Assembly: GCA_016458225.1 (NCBI GenBank)
Contig: JAEMGR010000049.1
Coordinates: 1 to 36,730 of the forward strand
Source of the DNA: Myxococcaceae bacterium JPH2
Lineage (GTDB): Bacteria > Myxococcota > Myxococcia > Myxococcales > Myxococcaceae
Reading direction: 5' to 3'
DNA length: 36,730 nucleotides
In this document: positions 7,629 to 18,505 of the stretch, piece after piece
Layout: every line of letters begins with the position of its first letter
Numbering within the stretch: position 1 is the first letter of the stretch
Made by a program: the position numbers and the translations under genes
The notes under the pieces: model-generated
Seen by the model: only the letters and a program-made list of their open reading frames with translations
The model's database searches: none
Told to the model about the DNA's origin: nothing

Positions 7629-8918
7629 ATGAAGCTCACGCGGCTGGAGATCCATGGCTACCGCGAGGTCGCGCCCGGGACGGTGCTCACGTTCGGGCCC
7701 GCGCACAACCTGGTGCTGGGTGACAACGGCACGGGCCGCACCACGCTGCTGGAGCTCATCTCCCAGGTGCTGCGCGCGGACTTCTCCACGATGCGCCACG
7801 AGCCCTTCTCGCTCGCGTGGCGCGTGGAGCTTCCTGGCATGACGCTGGACATGGTCGTGCGCAACCTGCCCGCCACGCCGGACGCAGTGACCGTGCCCGT
7901 CGTCACGCCGCGCCTCGCGCTCGCGCTGCCGCCCTCCGAGCCCGACACCGGACTGCACCCCTACCTGGAGGCCGATGTCCGGCTCTCCGGCCCGGACACG
8001 CGGCTGCGCGTGCGCGCAGATGCCTCGGGGCTGGGCTGCGAGGTGGATGGCGTGTCGGTCTGGTCGCGAGGCATGCACTGGTCCGTGTTGGACCGCACGG
8101 TGTGGACGCTGCTCTTCATGGGCGCGCAGTACATCGACCGCGGCCTGCGCGAGCGGCTGCGCGAACTCCTGCGCCGCACGTTCCTCCTGTCGCCGTCGCG
8201 CTTCGACGAGGCGCTCGGGACGTTCGAGCGCATTGGCACGCATCGCTACGCGATGGAGTCGCACGGCGACGACGTGTTCCCCTTGGGGCTCATGGCCCTG
8301 CCCACGTGGCTGCCGGGCTGGCTGCGCCGGCAGGTGGAGCGTGAGCCTCCGCGCGAGGCGCTGGAGTTCGCCCACGATGAGCTGGAGCGGAACTTCCTGG
8401 CGCGGTTCGTGGAACTGGCGGGGTTCGCCTCGGGGACGATGCGGGTGGAGGTGCTGGAGCGACGCGACTACGAGGATGGAGGGAGGCTGGCCTTCGGTCG
8501 CTTCAGCTTCCGCTTCACGCGGCGGGATGGCACCACGCGGAGCCAGGAGCAGCTCGGTCACGGGCAGAAGCGACTCTTGTCCTTCCTGTACTACCTGGAC
8601 GTGAACGAGGACTTCGTCATCGCGGACGAGCTGCCCAACGGCTTGCATCCCCGTCACGTCGCGACCTGCGTGGACGAGCTGGGCGCGCGACAGGCCTTTC
8701 TCACCAGCCAGAACCCGCTGTTGCTCGAACACGTCACGTTCCGCTCGGCCCAGGACCTGCGCCGCTCCGTCATCCACTGCGCGGTGGAGCAAGGCCCCGG
8801 CCCCGAGCGTCTGCGCTGGAGTCAGCCCGACGCGGACGTGGCTACCCGCCTCTTCCCCCCGTGGTGCGATGCTCCTCATGGTCGCGGCGCATTGCTGCGC
8901 ACCCATGGCCTCGGGTGA
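7629..8918 (+). CDS. AAA family ATPase (AAA_21/RecF-like) with Arg in Walker A
   Basis: 429 residues. The N-terminus (LTRLEIHGYREV, then HNLVLGDNGTGRTTLLELIS) is that of single-chain RecF/OLD/AAA_21-type ATPases. The P-loop at residues 31-39 reads GDNGTGRTT, with Arg37 where Lys is nearly invariant; the codon is a clear CGC. A signature-like segment QLGHGQKRLLSFLYYLD and a Walker B with catalytic acid (FVIADELPNGLHP, D333/E334) follow. A QAFLTSQNPLLLEHV segment matches the switch region. So the ABC-like core is complete apart from the Lys. No nuclease (TOPRIM) domain is seen. Role unknown; DNA-linked or defence functions are common in the family. Confidence 0.8.
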   Translation: MKLTRLEIHGYREVAPGTVLTFGPAHNLVLGDNGTGRTTLLELISQVLRADFSTMRHEPFSLAWRVELPGMTLDMVVRNLPATPDAVTVPVVTPRLALALPPSEPDTGLHPYLEADVRLSGPDTRLRVRADASGLGCEVDGVSVWSRGMHWSVLDRTVWTLLFMGAQYIDRGLRERLRELLRRTFLLSPSRFDEALGTFERIGTHRYAMESHGDDVFPLGLMALPTWLPGWLRRQVEREPPREALEFAHDELERNFLARFVELAGFASGTMRVEVLERRDYEDGGRLAFGRFSFRFTRRDGTTRSQEQLGHGQKRLLSFLYYLDVNEDFVIADELPNGLHPRHVATCVDELGARQAFLTSQNPLLLEHVTFRSAQDLRRSVIHCAVEQGPGPERLRWSQPDADVATRLFPPWCDAPHGRGALLRTHGLG

Positions 8919-14507: not shown

Positions 14508-14538
14508 TTGAGAAATGCACTCATTTCCTGCTTAGCGT
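14508..14538 (+). promoter_or_regulatory. Promoter-like element before the first Cys-rich lipoprotein gene
   Basis: TTGAGA and TAGCGT are separated by 19 bp, aligning with the TTGAT(G/A)-N19-TAATCT elements upstream of the two related genes at 15267 and 16797. The shared spacing across three diverged copies supports function; the 19-bp spacer is longer than usual. Confidence 0.4.
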
Positions 14539-14602
14539 GTCTCGCCTGGTGCAACGTCGCTCCATTCTCGGAGCGCCGTCGAGCACGAGGGGGGAGCTGG
14601 TC

Positions 14603-15064
14603 ATGAAGCTGGGAATCACGATGCTGCGTGCAGTGGTGGCGGTGTCCGCGGTGCTGGCCCTGGGGGCCTGCGGTTCGGTGCCCTCGGATGACGCCTCGAT
14701 GACGGGAGACGAGTCCCTGATGGAGTCCAAGGCGAACCTGGGGAGCTGCCCGGGCTATGACTCCTGCGCCAATTTCTCGCCCTGGTACGAGATCAACGCG
14801 AACGCCTACTGCGACGTCGCGGGGTCCTGTGGCTATGTGTGGGCTTGTGACAACGAGTGCATTGGCGGCGGCCAGGAGCCCGCCAAGGTGAAGGAGGGCA
14901 GCGACCCGAGCTTCATCCCGTCCTGCCCCTGCGGCAACGCCTACCGCCAGCCCAAGCCCGCCACGTACGGCCTCCAGGAGCGCTACCGCTACTGCTACAA
15001 TCAGGCTGGCCAGGGCTGCACCGACTACGAGCACCAGTACGCCGTCCACGCCTGCGGCTGCTGA
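14603..15064 (+). CDS. Cysteine-rich lipoprotein, paralog 1
   Basis: 153 residues from ATG 14603, preceded by AGGGGGGAG. The signal peptide (MKLGITMLRAVVAVSAVLAL) ends in lipobox LGAC with Cys23 as the lipidation site. The mature chain has twelve further cysteines, enough for six disulfides, and ends ACGC. It is a clear paralog of the protein at 16797-17246: LGSCPGYDSCANFSPW, DPSFIP, YCYNQAGQGCTD and the last cysteines align. No enzyme motif is visible. It is probably a disulfide-stabilised envelope or surface protein. It stands next to a secreted metzincin with a related leader. Confidence 0.8.
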   Translation: MKLGITMLRAVVAVSAVLALGACGSVPSDDASMTGDESLMESKANLGSCPGYDSCANFSPWYEINANAYCDVAGSCGYVWACDNECIGGGQEPAKVKEGSDPSFIPSCPCGNAYRQPKPATYGLQERYRYCYNQAGQGCTDYEHQYAVHACGC

Positions 15065-15081
15065 AGCACGCCGCCGAGCCC

Positions 15082-15106
15082 CCGCTCCTCCTCCCAGGGG
15101 GAGCGG
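15082..15106 (+). terminator. Hairpin after the first Cys-rich lipoprotein gene
   Basis: A 7-bp perfect stem CCGCTCC / GGAGCGG with an 11-nt loop begins 18 bp after the stop. No T-run follows. It is a candidate terminator separating paralog 1 from the metalloprotease unit. Confidence 0.45.
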
Positions 15107-15128
15107 TCCACTCGATTCAAGACCGCAT

Positions 15129-15146
15129 CTGTCCGTGACCGGACAG
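15129..15146. promoter_or_regulatory. Palindrome upstream of the metalloprotease gene
   Basis: CTGTCCG-TGAC-CGGACAG is a perfect 7-bp inverted repeat with a 4-nt centre, about 27 bp before the -35-like TTGATG. In the copy at 16649-16662 the innermost pair is changed on both sides (G:C to A:T), keeping the symmetry. That supports an operator or hairpin role. Confidence 0.5.
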
Positions 15147-15172
15147 TGGTGAATGCCCGACAGACTGCTCTC

Positions 15173-15203
15173 TTGATGGGGCAATCTCATTCACCCCTAA
15201 TCT
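15173..15203 (+). promoter_or_regulatory. Promoter-like element before the metalloprotease gene
   Basis: TTGATG and TAATCT lie 19 bp apart, 64 bp before the chosen ATG. The intervening CTCATTCAC and the boxes themselves are conserved in the copy at 16691-16721. Assignment as a housekeeping-type promoter is inferred from conservation. Confidence 0.45.
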
Positions 15204-15266
15204 GGCTTCCTCCTGTCGCCGCGCATCGTCCTCGAGGCGCCCGCTGGCATGGGGAAGGAACGGCTC

Positions 15267-16526
15267 ATGAAGGCAGGAATGACGTTGCTGCGAGCGGTGG
15301 CGGCGGTGTCCTTGGTGTTGGCGTTGAGCTCCTGCGGAGACGTGCCCCCACCGGACGCGGCACAGCCCAGCACTCGCCAGGATGAGCTGGTCGCAGAGGC
15401 CGTGCCTCTCCCGCTCCCTGCCGGCTGCCTCATCACCTCCCTGGATACAGACCATGACGGCATCTGTGACATCGTCGAGGCGGTGTTGGGCACCGATCCC
15501 AACAAGGCGGACACCGATGGGGACAACCTGAGCGACTACGTCGAATCATTCGGCTTCGGCGGCTTGGATTTGAGTGCCCTCGGCGCCAACGCGCGCAAGA
15601 AGGACATCTTCGTGGAGGTGGACTACTACCCCGGCCTCCAGCCCTCCCAGGCGCTGCTGAACAGCGTGATCACGGCGTTCGCCAACGCGCCGGTGAACAA
15701 CCCGAATGGGACCACGGGCATCAACCTGCACCTGGTGTTGGATCAGCAGATCGCCGCCGCGGATGCGGACCAGGACTTGAATCCGGTCTGGACCGACTTC
15801 GACACCATCAAGGCCAAGTATTTCTCCGCGAACCGTGCGCCGTACTTCCACTACATGCTGTTCGCGAACCGCTACAACGGAGGCAACTCCAGCGGCATCT
15901 CGCGCGGCATTCCCGCGCATGACTTCGTGGTGACCCTGGGCTTCGTGGGAGGCGTGACCGATCTGGCGCTGGCGGGCACCCTCATGCACGAGCTGGGGCA
16001 CAACATCGGCCTGCGCCACGGCGGCAATGACGACTCCAACTACAAGCCCAACTACCTGAGCATCATGAACTACGAATACCAGTTCTATGGGTTCGTCATT
16101 GACCGCATCGGTGGCACGCTCGACTACTCACGCGTGAAGGTGGCCGCCTTCGACGAGAGGACCGTCAGCGAGACGACCGCGTTCGCGCCCGTGGCCCCGA
16201 CCACGGAGGCTGACCTCTCTCGCATTGGAGGGATCCGCGTCAACGGCGTCTCGGTGTTTGGCCATGCCGACACCGACCTCGACTTCAATAACAACATCAA
16301 CATTGACCCCGGCACCTACGCCCTGGACTTCAACCGCAGCGGCTCCGCCACGGATGTCTTCCCGGCGTCGCAGAATGACTGGTTGGCGCTGCTCTTCGAT
16401 GGCGGCGGCACGATTGGCTTCGCCGCGCCGGGCGTCTCGCGGAGCCTGGGGCGCGCGGAGCCCTTCCTCGTGGCCCCCGAGAAGATGGAGCCCTGCCTCA
16501 CGGTGGATCCGAAGCACGCCCCGTAA
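15267..16526 (+). CDS. Secreted metzincin-like zinc metalloprotease lipoprotein
   Basis: 419 residues from ATG 15267, with GGGGAAGGAA six bases upstream; an ATG 18 bp earlier lies ahead of that site. The signal peptide ends in LSSC (Cys23), a lipobox. Residues 60-90 hold two thrombospondin-3-like calcium repeats (DTDHDGICD, DTDGDNLSD). The zinc site HELGHNIGLRHGG gives His241, Glu242 (catalytic), His245 and His251. SIMNY with Met267 is the Met-turn of metzincins. The C-terminal ~120 residues include DTDLDFNNNINID, another Asp/Asn-rich, possibly calcium-binding stretch. Subfamily unresolved. It likely acts at the cell surface or outside the cell. Confidence 0.88.
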   Translation: MKAGMTLLRAVAAVSLVLALSSCGDVPPPDAAQPSTRQDELVAEAVPLPLPAGCLITSLDTDHDGICDIVEAVLGTDPNKADTDGDNLSDYVESFGFGGLDLSALGANARKKDIFVEVDYYPGLQPSQALLNSVITAFANAPVNNPNGTTGINLHLVLDQQIAAADADQDLNPVWTDFDTIKAKYFSANRAPYFHYMLFANRYNGGNSSGISRGIPAHDFVVTLGFVGGVTDLALAGTLMHELGHNIGLRHGGNDDSNYKPNYLSIMNYEYQFYGFVIDRIGGTLDYSRVKVAAFDERTVSETTAFAPVAPTTEADLSRIGGIRVNGVSVFGHADTDLDFNNNINIDPGTYALDFNRSGSATDVFPASQNDWLALLFDGGGTIGFAAPGVSRSLGRAEPFLVAPEKMEPCLTVDPKHAP

Positions 16527-16558
16527 GCACGCCGCCCCTCACTGACGCGCCGAATCCC

Positions 16559-16589
16559 ACCGCCGGGGGCCTGCACGGGCCCCGGCGGT
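16559..16589 (+). terminator. Strong hairpin after the metalloprotease gene
   Basis: A 10-bp perfect stem, ACCGCCGGGG / CCCCGGCGGT, with further inner pairing, starts 32 bp after the stop and is followed by CGTGTCTGTCC. It is the best terminator candidate in the window. Confidence 0.65.
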
Positions 16590-16648
16590 CGTGTCTGTCC
16601 AAGCGCATCGACCCGAACGGTGGGCTCGCTCGAGGCGGATGCCCATCT

Positions 16649-16662
16649 GTCCATGAGTGGAC
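16649..16662. promoter_or_regulatory. Covarying palindrome, copy B
   Basis: GTCCA-TGAG-TGGAC is a 5-bp inverted repeat with a 4-nt centre. Compared with 15129-15146, the closing pair next to the centre is A:T instead of G:C on both arms, while outer bases beyond 5 bp no longer pair. Confidence 0.4.
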
Positions 16663-16690
16663 GCTGATAGATGCCCAACACACTGTGGTC

Positions 16691-16721
16691 TTGATAGGGC
16701 AACCTCATTCACGCCTAATCT
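16691..16721 (+). promoter_or_regulatory. Promoter-like element before the second Cys-rich lipoprotein gene
   Basis: TTGATA-N19-TAATCT, aligned base for base with the element at 15173-15203. Confidence 0.45.
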
Positions 16722-16796
16722 GAAATTCCCGTGTCGCCGCGCCTCATCCTCGGGGCGCCTGCTGGCACGGGAAGGAACAGACCCAAGAAGGTAGGA

Positions 16797-17246
16797 ATGA
16801 CGTTGCTGCGTGCGATGGCGACGGTGTCCGCGGTGTTGGCTTTGAGCGCCTGTGGCGCGATGCCGGGCGACGAGAACGCGCCCCTGGGCGATGACTCCGT
16901 CGTGGAGTCCAAGGCCGCGCTGGGGAGCTGCCCTGGCTATGATTCCTGTGCCGCGTTCTCGCCGTGGGTCGACGTCCCTGGGACCACCACGTGCACCGAG
17001 GACACGTCGTGTGGCTATACCTGGGTTTGCGGCTCGTGTTTCGCGGGCGGGGCGCAGGATGAGCTGAAGGACAACACCGACCCGAGCTTCATCCCCCAGT
17101 GTCCCCCCGGCTCGTGCCCGCAGACCGTGGGCAAGCCCGCCAAGTACGTCCAGCAGACCCGCTACCGCGTCTGCTACAACCCGGCCGGCCAGAGCTGCAC
17201 GGACCGCGAGTACCAGACCGGCGCGAAGGTCGCCTGCGGCTGCTGA
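16797..17246 (+). CDS. Cysteine-rich lipoprotein, paralog 2
   Basis: 149 residues if started at ATG 16797. In the two related genes translation starts four codons earlier at ATGAAG, but here that codon is AAG, so the next Met is used with AAGG five bases upstream. A GTG at 16731 would give a poor, non-hydrophobic extension. The signal MTLLRAMATVSAVLALSAC ends in lipobox LSAC (Cys19). The mature part has twelve more cysteines, and the blocks LGSCPGYDSCAAFSPW, DPSFIP and CYNPAGQSCTD are shared with paralog 1. Probably a disulfide-rich envelope or surface protein; no enzymatic motif. Confidence 0.78.
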   Translation: MTLLRAMATVSAVLALSACGAMPGDENAPLGDDSVVESKAALGSCPGYDSCAAFSPWVDVPGTTTCTEDTSCGYTWVCGSCFAGGAQDELKDNTDPSFIPQCPPGSCPQTVGKPAKYVQQTRYRVCYNPAGQSCTDREYQTGAKVACGC

Positions 17247-17263: not shown

Positions 17264-18505
17264 TCAGCGCACCGGCTCGAAGAAGCGCTCGGCGCGCAGC
17301 CCCGTGCCCTTGAAAAGACTGCTCAACAGGCCGTCATACCCCCATGACAGCCAGACAATCATGGCCTTGCCTTTGATGTGGCCATCGGGGACGTAGGCAG
17401 GCACCACGGGACCGCCCAGGCCGTAGCGGCTGTCCAGGCTGTTGTCGCGATTGTCCCCCGCGACGAAGACGTGGCCCTCGGGAACGACATACGGGCCTTC
17501 GTGCGCTCGGGCCGGCGGGCGCACGGGGTTCTGAAGCGCGGCGTGTGTCACCCCCGACAGGTGCTCGCGGTACAGCACGAGGTGCTCCTCGAACCACGCC
17601 CCGCTCTCCTCGGCGCGGTTGTGCACGACCGAGTTCGCGGACTCGAGTTCGCGCGGCTGTGGCTGCCCGTTGATGACCACTCCGTCGTCGACGAACTCGA
17701 CCGTATCGCCCGGAACGCCGACCACGCGCTTGATGAGGTCCGTGGAGGTGTCCACCGGATTGTTGAAGACAATCACGTCACCCCGCGCCGGCGCTCGGAC
17801 GATGCGGAAGGGCACCACATTGAGCAGCGGGATGCGCACGCCGTAGATGAACTTGTTGATGAAGACCTGATCTCCAAGCTGGAGCGTGGGCAACATCGAG
17901 CCCGAGGGAATCCGATACGGCTCGATGATCACGGTCCGGATGAGCAGCGCGATGAAGAGCGCCTTCGCGATGCCCACGAGAAAGCTGCCCGCGAAGGGTC
18001 GGCGCTGCGCGCCCCAAAGCTCGGTGGCGAGCCCGTCCAGCACCTTCACCTCGGCTCGAAGCGTGTCCGCATGGTCCGCGATCGACGCGGCCTCCACGCG
18101 CAAGGCGTGCTCCAGGAGGCGCTCGACGGCGGGCGCGGGCAACGAACCGGCTCCACGCGACAGCAGGCGCTCCACCTCGGCGATGAGTTCGCTCGCGTCG
18201 TGCCTCGGCTGAAGCAGCGCCCGCGCCTTCGCGGACACCTGACGCCAGCCCCACAGCGCGACGCTGGCGAGCACCATCGCCAGCCCCCAGCCCCGCATCA
18301 CGGGCTGGGCCCACGCGGCGGTCTCGGGGAGGGACTCGATGAGCGCCACGTCCAGCACGAAGGCGATACCCAACAAGGACAAGGGCGCCCAGGGGCTCGT
18401 CAGCAGCTCGCGCCGCAGGTGCTGGCGCCTCGCGGCGTGCTGGGCGGGGGTGCGCCGGGCCGCGAGCGTGGCGGACGGTTTCTCGAAGGGACGGGCCGTG
18501 TTCAT
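17264..18505 (-). CDS. lepB: Signal peptidase I
   Basis: 413 residues, longer than the E. coli enzyme (~324). It cleaves Sec/Tat signal peptides at the periplasmic face of the inner membrane. The catalytic Ser203 lies in RIPSGSMLPTL and the general-base Lys259 in DLIKRVVGVPGD. The family box GHVFVAGDNRDNSLDSR is intact. Upstream there are two membrane segments near residues 40-85, a ~90-residue charged helical stretch unlike standard LepB, and a third hydrophobic segment (SFLVGIAKALFIALLIRTVI) just before the catalytic domain. Myxobacteria often have several SPase I copies, so this may not be the only one. Confidence 0.9.
   Translation of the reverse strand: MNTARPFEKPSATLAARRTPAQHAARRQHLRRELLTSPWAPLSLLGIAFVLDVALIESLPETAAWAQPVMRGWGLAMVLASVALWGWRQVSAKARALLQPRHDASELIAEVERLLSRGAGSLPAPAVERLLEHALRVEAASIADHADTLRAEVKVLDGLATELWGAQRRPFAGSFLVGIAKALFIALLIRTVIIEPYRIPSGSMLPTLQLGDQVFINKFIYGVRIPLLNVVPFRIVRAPARGDVIVFNNPVDTSTDLIKRVVGVPGDTVEFVDDGVVINGQPQPRELESANSVVHNRAEESGAWFEEHLVLYREHLSGVTHAALQNPVRPPARAHEGPYVVPEGHVFVAGDNRDNSLDSRYGLGGPVVPAYVPDGHIKGKAMIVWLSWGYDGLLSSLFKGTGLRAERFFEPVR

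Follow-up and report, generated by a model that had tools for sequence, protein, structure and literature searches.

In blaNDM-1, a metalloenzyme coding sequence follows, in frame, the expression signals and initial few codons of a different gene, and the joint came with a mobile element. The Vpma and Vsp families of Mycoplasma agalactiae and M. bovis are reported to have varied lipoprotein cargos behind one conserved 5' untranslated region, signal peptide and fixed cleavage motif, and recombination in short stretches of homology (38 bp) gives rise to hybrid genes (PMC5634654). Here we report a related arrangement in Myxococcaceae bacterium JPH2, in a 36,730-nucleotide stretch of DNA (positions 1 to 36,730, forward strand, of contig JAEMGR010000049.1; the whole stretch is hereafter called the window), where the gene for a metalloprotease of the metzincin type lies between two paralogous genes for lipoproteins with 12 Cys residues. 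We conclude, with a probability of about 0.92, that this protease gene is a leader-capture chimera, whose own upstream region and signal peptide were replaced by a copy of those of the neighboring 12-Cys lipoprotein gene. Myxobacteria have very many surface lipoproteins, and the steps of their regulatory evolution are unknown. The locus suggests a route by which an exported enzyme can change its regulation while its anchor is kept, and this route is readable base by base here.

A leader block shared by the protease gene and Cys gene 2

Three consecutive open reading frames on the plus strand, at 14603-15064 (153 amino acids), 15267-16526 (419 amino acids) and 16797-17246 (149 amino acids), each begin with a bacterial-lipoprotein signal peptide closed by a lipobox (LGAC, LSSC and LSAC, respectively). 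These features were read directly; lipidation itself is predicted. The initial annotation had described three successive genes with related signal peptides ending in lipoboxes, the outer two encoding paralogous 12-Cys proteins and the middle one a metalloprotease with calcium repeats, and it was accurate in these respects. The outer proteins are 55% identical and have 13 Cys each in the mature part (the lipid-bearing Cys and 12 others), and the middle one has the motifs HELGHNIGLRH and SIMNY and a single TSP3 repeat above the cut-off. The principal features are as follows.

14603-15064, plus strand: Cys gene 1, lipoprotein with 12 Cys besides the lipid-bearing Cys; leader at 14603-14671
15126-15337, plus strand: protease leader block (upstream DNA, 5' untranslated region and signal peptide), direct repeat of 16644-16855
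15267-16526, plus strand: chimeric gene for the metzincin lipoprotein, with the Cys-family leader at 15267-15335 and the mature protease after it
15324-15338, plus strand: junction, lipobox codons TTG AGC TCC TGC GGA
15324-16600, plus strand: cargo, homologous to protease genes of other genera (Blast against seven orthologous loci)
16644-16855, plus strand: Cys gene 2 leader block, second copy of the direct repeat
16797-17246, plus strand: Cys gene 2, paralogue of Cys gene 1; start at ATG 16797 or GTG 16731

The protease gene and Cys gene 2 have in common 221 nucleotides at 78% identity (15126-15346 and 16644-16864). The block comprises upstream DNA and the signal peptide, measures 212-221 nucleotides at 78-81% identity and ends at the lipobox. 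Its likeness has an E value of 1.6e-49. The alignment score is 221, and that of the noncoding part alone is 133, whereas 1000 shuffles gave at most 29 in either case. By this comparison, the two leaders are homologous and not merely alike; the chance likeness that the initial annotation had named as a possible refutation is far exceeded. The stretch in common with Cys gene 1 is shorter, covering its leader and about 45 nucleotides before it (125 nucleotides at 70-71% identity). With the leader included it is real, scoring 69 against a shuffle maximum of 33. The noncoding part alone is not above chance, its score of 14 being reached by 972 of 1000 shuffles, so that a common upstream region is established for the protease gene and Cys gene 2, not for Cys gene 1. 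The earlier proposal of leader shuffling, in which a promoter and signal peptide were copied in front of different cargos, is supported by the protease gene, with its Cys-family leader, block and lipobox joint, but it is worded too widely for Cys gene 1, whose share in the noncoding upstream DNA is not demonstrable. A search of the two genomes of the genus, which scored 40 candidates out of 67 in one and 40 out of 69 in the other, found no further copy of the block better than E = 0.006.

The joint in the lipobox codons

Identity changes partner at the lipobox. In 30-nucleotide bins upstream of it, the identity of the protease gene is 70-90% with Cys gene 2 and 22-31% with six close orthologues; downstream, the values are 23-40% and 83-96%, and the bin that spans the joint shows 73% and 62%, respectively. 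Depending on the orthologue compared, the cargo starts at 15318-15324, in the lipobox, and ends at 16591-16611, just past a conserved hairpin. The 16-nucleotide word TTGAGCGCCTGTGGCG stands at the joint in Cys gene 2 and likewise in five of the six close orthologues, and this identity prevents any finer placement of the crossover. The upstream region and leader that belong to the orthologues left no trace in either Citreicoccus genome (best E = 0.026). When the cargo ends of seven loci were compared by eye, no common target resembling a cassette site or att motif was seen.

The leader of the window protease is exceptional in its family. Leaders were read in 53 distinct protease copies at 50 loci, a census that took in part of the protease matches and counted once those copies with identical first 200 nucleotides of the aligned part. 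Ten of the 53 are a longer form without this leader region. Among the 43 short-form copies, the leader type MSxLxKxLLTASxxxLGLxxCG accounts for 39; three more copies (L033, L108 and the second copy of L097) are truncated or scrambled, and the window protease is the one copy with the Cys-family leader. The latter type, MKxGxxLLRAV, is also found on Cys homologues of other genera. In L033 (L084:318-330) and L108 the leader is lost or scrambled near the lipobox; the contig of L033 ends about 0.3 kb away.

An empty site in Citreicoccus inhibens

The window genome is a draft of 8,994,968 bases in 144 contigs. Its nearest relative in the comparison set, Citreicoccus inhibens M34 (G055), is marked as belonging to the same genus and is likewise a draft, of about 120 contigs. 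The two Cys genes of C. inhibens are direct neighbors, with no protease gene between them. The C. inhibens DNA parallels the window up to 15337 and resumes at 16644, so that where C. inhibens has a single copy of the 212-nucleotide block, the window has two, with about 1.3 kb of cargo in between. The protease is absent from the C. inhibens genome, the best match having E = 3e-7 and the sole listed place being a TSP3 stretch, and the locus lies inside a 457-kb contig.

The single block of C. inhibens is a mosaic. Over its first 48 nucleotides it is closer to the protease block (distance 0.125) than to the Cys gene 2 block (0.271), and over the remainder closer to the Cys gene 2 block (0.092) than to the protease block (0.177). 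Informative sites divide 9:2 and then 5:18 (protease block to Cys gene 2 block), and 193 of 10,000 permutations with a searched breakpoint do as well. Such a mosaic is what recombination between the repeats would leave. In the two parts, the window repeats differ from each other by 0.271 and 0.160, as compared with 0.125 and 0.092 from their C. inhibens counterparts. Because the repeats differ more from each other than each does from C. inhibens, their duplication either predates the species split or was imported. A duplication older than the split favors loss of the protease in C. inhibens, although an imported ready-made unit fits as well.

Cys gene 1 has a 92% identical orthologue in C. inhibens. 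Cys gene 2 is more distant from its counterpart there (0.223) than Cys gene 1 is (0.091). The codon that matches the ATG of the other copies, those of the protease gene and of C. inhibens, reads AAG in Cys gene 2 of the window (16785-16787), so that the start of this gene is the inner ATG at 16797 or the in-frame GTG at 16731. A signal peptidase I gene (Peptidase_S26, 17264-18505) adjoins Cys gene 2 in the window and is not present in C. inhibens (L070:7126-8377), where a 214-amino-acid open reading frame and short remnants (59 nucleotides at 86%) take its place. Instability at this locus extends to both flanks of Cys gene 2.

Leader capture, proposed loss and the alternatives

In our reading, the metzincin lipoprotein gene of related genera, where it comes with upstream DNA and a signal peptide of its own, has lost both in the window genome. 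The protease sequence now follows an additional copy of the Cys gene's upstream DNA and signal peptide, with a join in the lipobox codons that preserves the reading frame, the lipid-bearing Cys and the following Gly. Since Cys-Gly stands at the joint in both families, it was presumably expression and the cleaved leader that changed, and not the location of the protein. We accordingly take the event to be a regulatory capture. The block probably drives expression of the protease, which is predicted to be lipidated and active. The outcome is a cargo cassette flanked by two direct repeats of about 212 nucleotides, and recombination between these could delete the protease in one step and leave the Cys gene intact, as in C. 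inhibens. Loss in C. inhibens, rather than gain of a ready-made chimera in the window lineage, is the direction that we infer.

Several points weigh against this account of capture followed by loss. A promoter scan returned no hit at its threshold, the candidate -35/-10 pair listed below included. The lipobox word was considered as a dispersed exact repeat, and the pattern YTGAGCGCCTGYGGC, in its exact form, was found twice in the genome (0 for controls); a 15-nucleotide lipobox word present just twice is not an exact repeat of the widespread sort from which frequent joints of this kind would be expected. The genus comparison consists of two species. The breakpoint behind the 9:2 and 5:18 counts was picked on the same data, and the permutation result is modest (about 0.02). 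Moreover, loss in C. inhibens and single-crossover insertion of an imported chimera predict the same mosaic. Finally, the Cys and protease families co-occur above expectation in 145 genomes of the order (18 with both, 6 with Cys only, 12 with a close protease only and 109 with neither), counts in which a profile search adds weak Cys matches to several of the genomes taken as Cys-less. Within Myxococcus (genus g19), the counts are 10, 2, 3 and 12, with p = 0.0018 uncorrected for relatedness or genome size.

It is possible, if unlikely, that leader and protease reached the window lineage already joined, from another bacterium, through one crossover in the leader block, and that C. inhibens shows the older state. 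The mosaic fits this course too, and single protease genes do travel between genera. Short-form copies across Myxococcus and genus g5, which we take to be Corallococcus, are 93-94% identical with a synonymous divergence of 0.05-0.08, compared with 0.45 for a GMC oxidoreductase gene between the same genera, and most of these loci have only about 1.5 kb in common, from 200-300 nucleotides before the protease gene to its hairpin. This low divergence and short shared segment indicate that the protease family travels as single genes, and with a travelling cargo an imported chimera becomes possible. Such an import, however, needs a donor with the chimera, and none was found among the 145 genomes of the order, the window being the sole leader-only match among 33 listed places. 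The synonymous divergence of the window protease from its close orthologues (0.36-0.44) is also not far below the value for the GMC gene (0.47-0.52); with a divergence only slightly lower than that of this one gene, a recent transfer into the window lineage is at most a possibility. The baseline gene chosen first had no orthologue in other genera.

Two further observations concern the travelling genes. Short-form metzincin genes that are nearly identical across two genera stand in nonhomologous surroundings (L034-L038, L094 and loci L079-L083), and a repeated element of about 150-180 nucleotides, 91-96% identical, occurs near protease genes in two Myxococcus genomes (L081:2524-2684 and 7819-7999; L082:5669-5821 and 8638-8797). 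Positive selection on the travelling clade was considered and rejected: pairwise dN/dS (nonsynonymous to synonymous substitution rates) was 1.0-1.46, but the excess of nonsynonymous over synonymous differences per site (pN > pS) was not significant in any of five pairs (one-sided p 0.12-0.38).

A functional partnership is improbable. The initial annotation had suggested from shared expression and location that the protease and the Cys-rich proteins act together, for example with the latter as substrate, inhibitor or matrix partner of the former. Selection for coexpression would then account for the leader that they share. The genes are indeed neighbors with a common upstream block in the window genome, and the Myxococcus association is the best evidence for such a role, although it is confounded with relatedness and genome size. 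Against it, C. inhibens retains both Cys genes without the protease. At the P0001 threshold, Cys genes occur without a close protease in three g7 and two Myxococcus genomes, and the protease occurs without Cys genes in nine g5 genomes, in two of which (G062 and G070) the profile search adds Cys matches. Of 25 Cys genes in other genera, 18 have no listed protease on their contig; for the other seven, the closest listed protease on the same contig is 26 kb away. None of 16 neighborhoods fetched from outside the genus (nine of Cys genes, seven of protease genes) holds both families. The proposed check of co-conservation thus gave raw co-occurrence without adjacency outside the genus, and we rejected partnership by co-conservation as the principal explanation, C. 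inhibens lacking the protease and the two families not having been found as neighbors in the loci compared elsewhere. Two findings had been named in advance as refuting a shared system: Cys genes without a nearby metalloprotease do exist, while leader likeness at chance level was not observed.

An assembly error, with a protease fragment misplaced between the Cys genes or the locus collapsed in C. inhibens, is very improbable: both assemblies are drafts, but purifying selection acts on an intact protease, the two repeats match at only about 80%, and in C. inhibens the locus lies well within a large contig and the protease is missing genome-wide. Convergence of ordinary lipoprotein signal peptides in one high-G+C genome has a negligible chance of being correct, because, although lipoprotein leaders look alike and the noncoding likeness of Cys gene 1 and the protease gene is no better than that of shuffles, the noncoding score refutes it for the protease gene and Cys gene 2, and identity falls at the lipobox in both directions.

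The protease and the 12-Cys proteins

Further features of the locus are listed here.

15082-15106, plus strand: G+C-rich hairpin after Cys gene 1, terminator-like, without a T-run; read from the sequence and not called by the scan
15173-15201, plus strand: possible -35/-10 pair, TTGATG, 17 nucleotides, CCTAAT; kept at 16691-16719 in the Cys gene 2 block
15444-15509, plus strand: TSP3 calcium-binding repeat, residues 60-81, above the Pfam cut-off
15987-16019, plus strand: zinc site HELGHNIGLRH; the first two His, Glu, Gly and third His invariant in 30 aligned homologues
16059-16073, plus strand: Met-turn SIMNY; Met and Tyr invariant in 30 aligned homologues
16560-16588, plus strand: conserved G+C-rich hairpin after the protease gene, terminator-like, without a T-run; not listed by the scan

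The protease has two sequence marks of a metzincin, the HExxHxxGxxH zinc site and the Met-turn. One TSP3_bac repeat passes its cut-off (28.8 bits as compared with 25). No named Pfam metzincin family scores above cut-off (M66, 19.1 of 20.6 bits; Reprolysin_5, 19.2 of 27), and because every Pfam protease score is below cut-off, we regard the protein as a metzincin by motif that belongs to no named Pfam family. Its sequence profile matches snake metzincins (E = 6e-4) only in the region of the zinc site, and the AlphaFold model is poor (mean predicted local distance difference test, pLDDT, 43). Comparison of the mature protease with its orthologues gave pN 0.13-0.16 and pS 0.29-0.32, indicating purifying selection on the mature part; the protease is therefore no relic.

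The Cys family was found by profile search in 34 of 195 genomes of the phylum, all of one family and in four genera of 90. The structure model of the Cys protein is usable only from about residue 45 (mean pLDDT 68.5). The family might be a bacterial fold resembling the thrombospondin type 1 repeat (TSR): properdin TSRs account for six of 20 VIA rows, with Z 3.3-3.6 over 47-51 residues, a weak likeness, and one of 27 family members has a TSP_1 match, also weak (E = 0.081). Foldseek gave no match to the model at E <= 0.001. Stretches of the form W-S-x-W and Y-R-x-C occur in the family (window 14740-15064).

Comparison with known systems

We tentatively suggest, though we consider it doubtful, that the direct-repeat blocks act as a lipoprotein cargo slot, in which in-frame joining at the lipobox would give a mature lipoprotein a working expression unit and the repeats would allow its harmless loss. 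If so, C. inhibens would have a slot from which the cargo has gone, and further myxobacterial lipoprotein genes would show cargos joined at the lipobox. In the literature titles returned by our searches, none dealt with lipobox-joined leader capture in bacteria.

Among described proteins, the closest to the window protease are the short-form metzincin lipoproteins of Myxococcaceae in g5 and Myxococcus, to which it is 67-78% identical over the mature part and which have the same hairpin after the gene. These have their own MSxLxKxLLTAS leader and their own upstream region, unlike the window gene. CglD (NF033765) and MtsD (NF047639) are myxobacterial TSP3 lipoproteins. The likeness to CglD lies in the TSP3 stretch (residues 49-94, E = 6.9e-9), and the window protease scores 34 of 400 and 12.2 of 800 bits against CglD and MtsD, respectively; it has a repeat in common with them but is not a member of either family.

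In contrast to blaNDM-1, where only a few codons precede the joint, the window protease has a whole signal peptide from a neighboring lipoprotein gene, joined at the lipobox. As in the Vpma genes, the protease gene and Cys gene 2 have a shared 5' untranslated region and signal peptide before different cargos. In Vpma and Vsp, a single promoter is switched, by site-specific recombination, between related antigens (phase variation), whereas here each of the two genes has a full block and the cargos are unrelated. No recombinase was found among nine nearby proteins scanned with Pfam, and no switching was seen. Leader capture at this locus is real, and it is of a kind that is already known.

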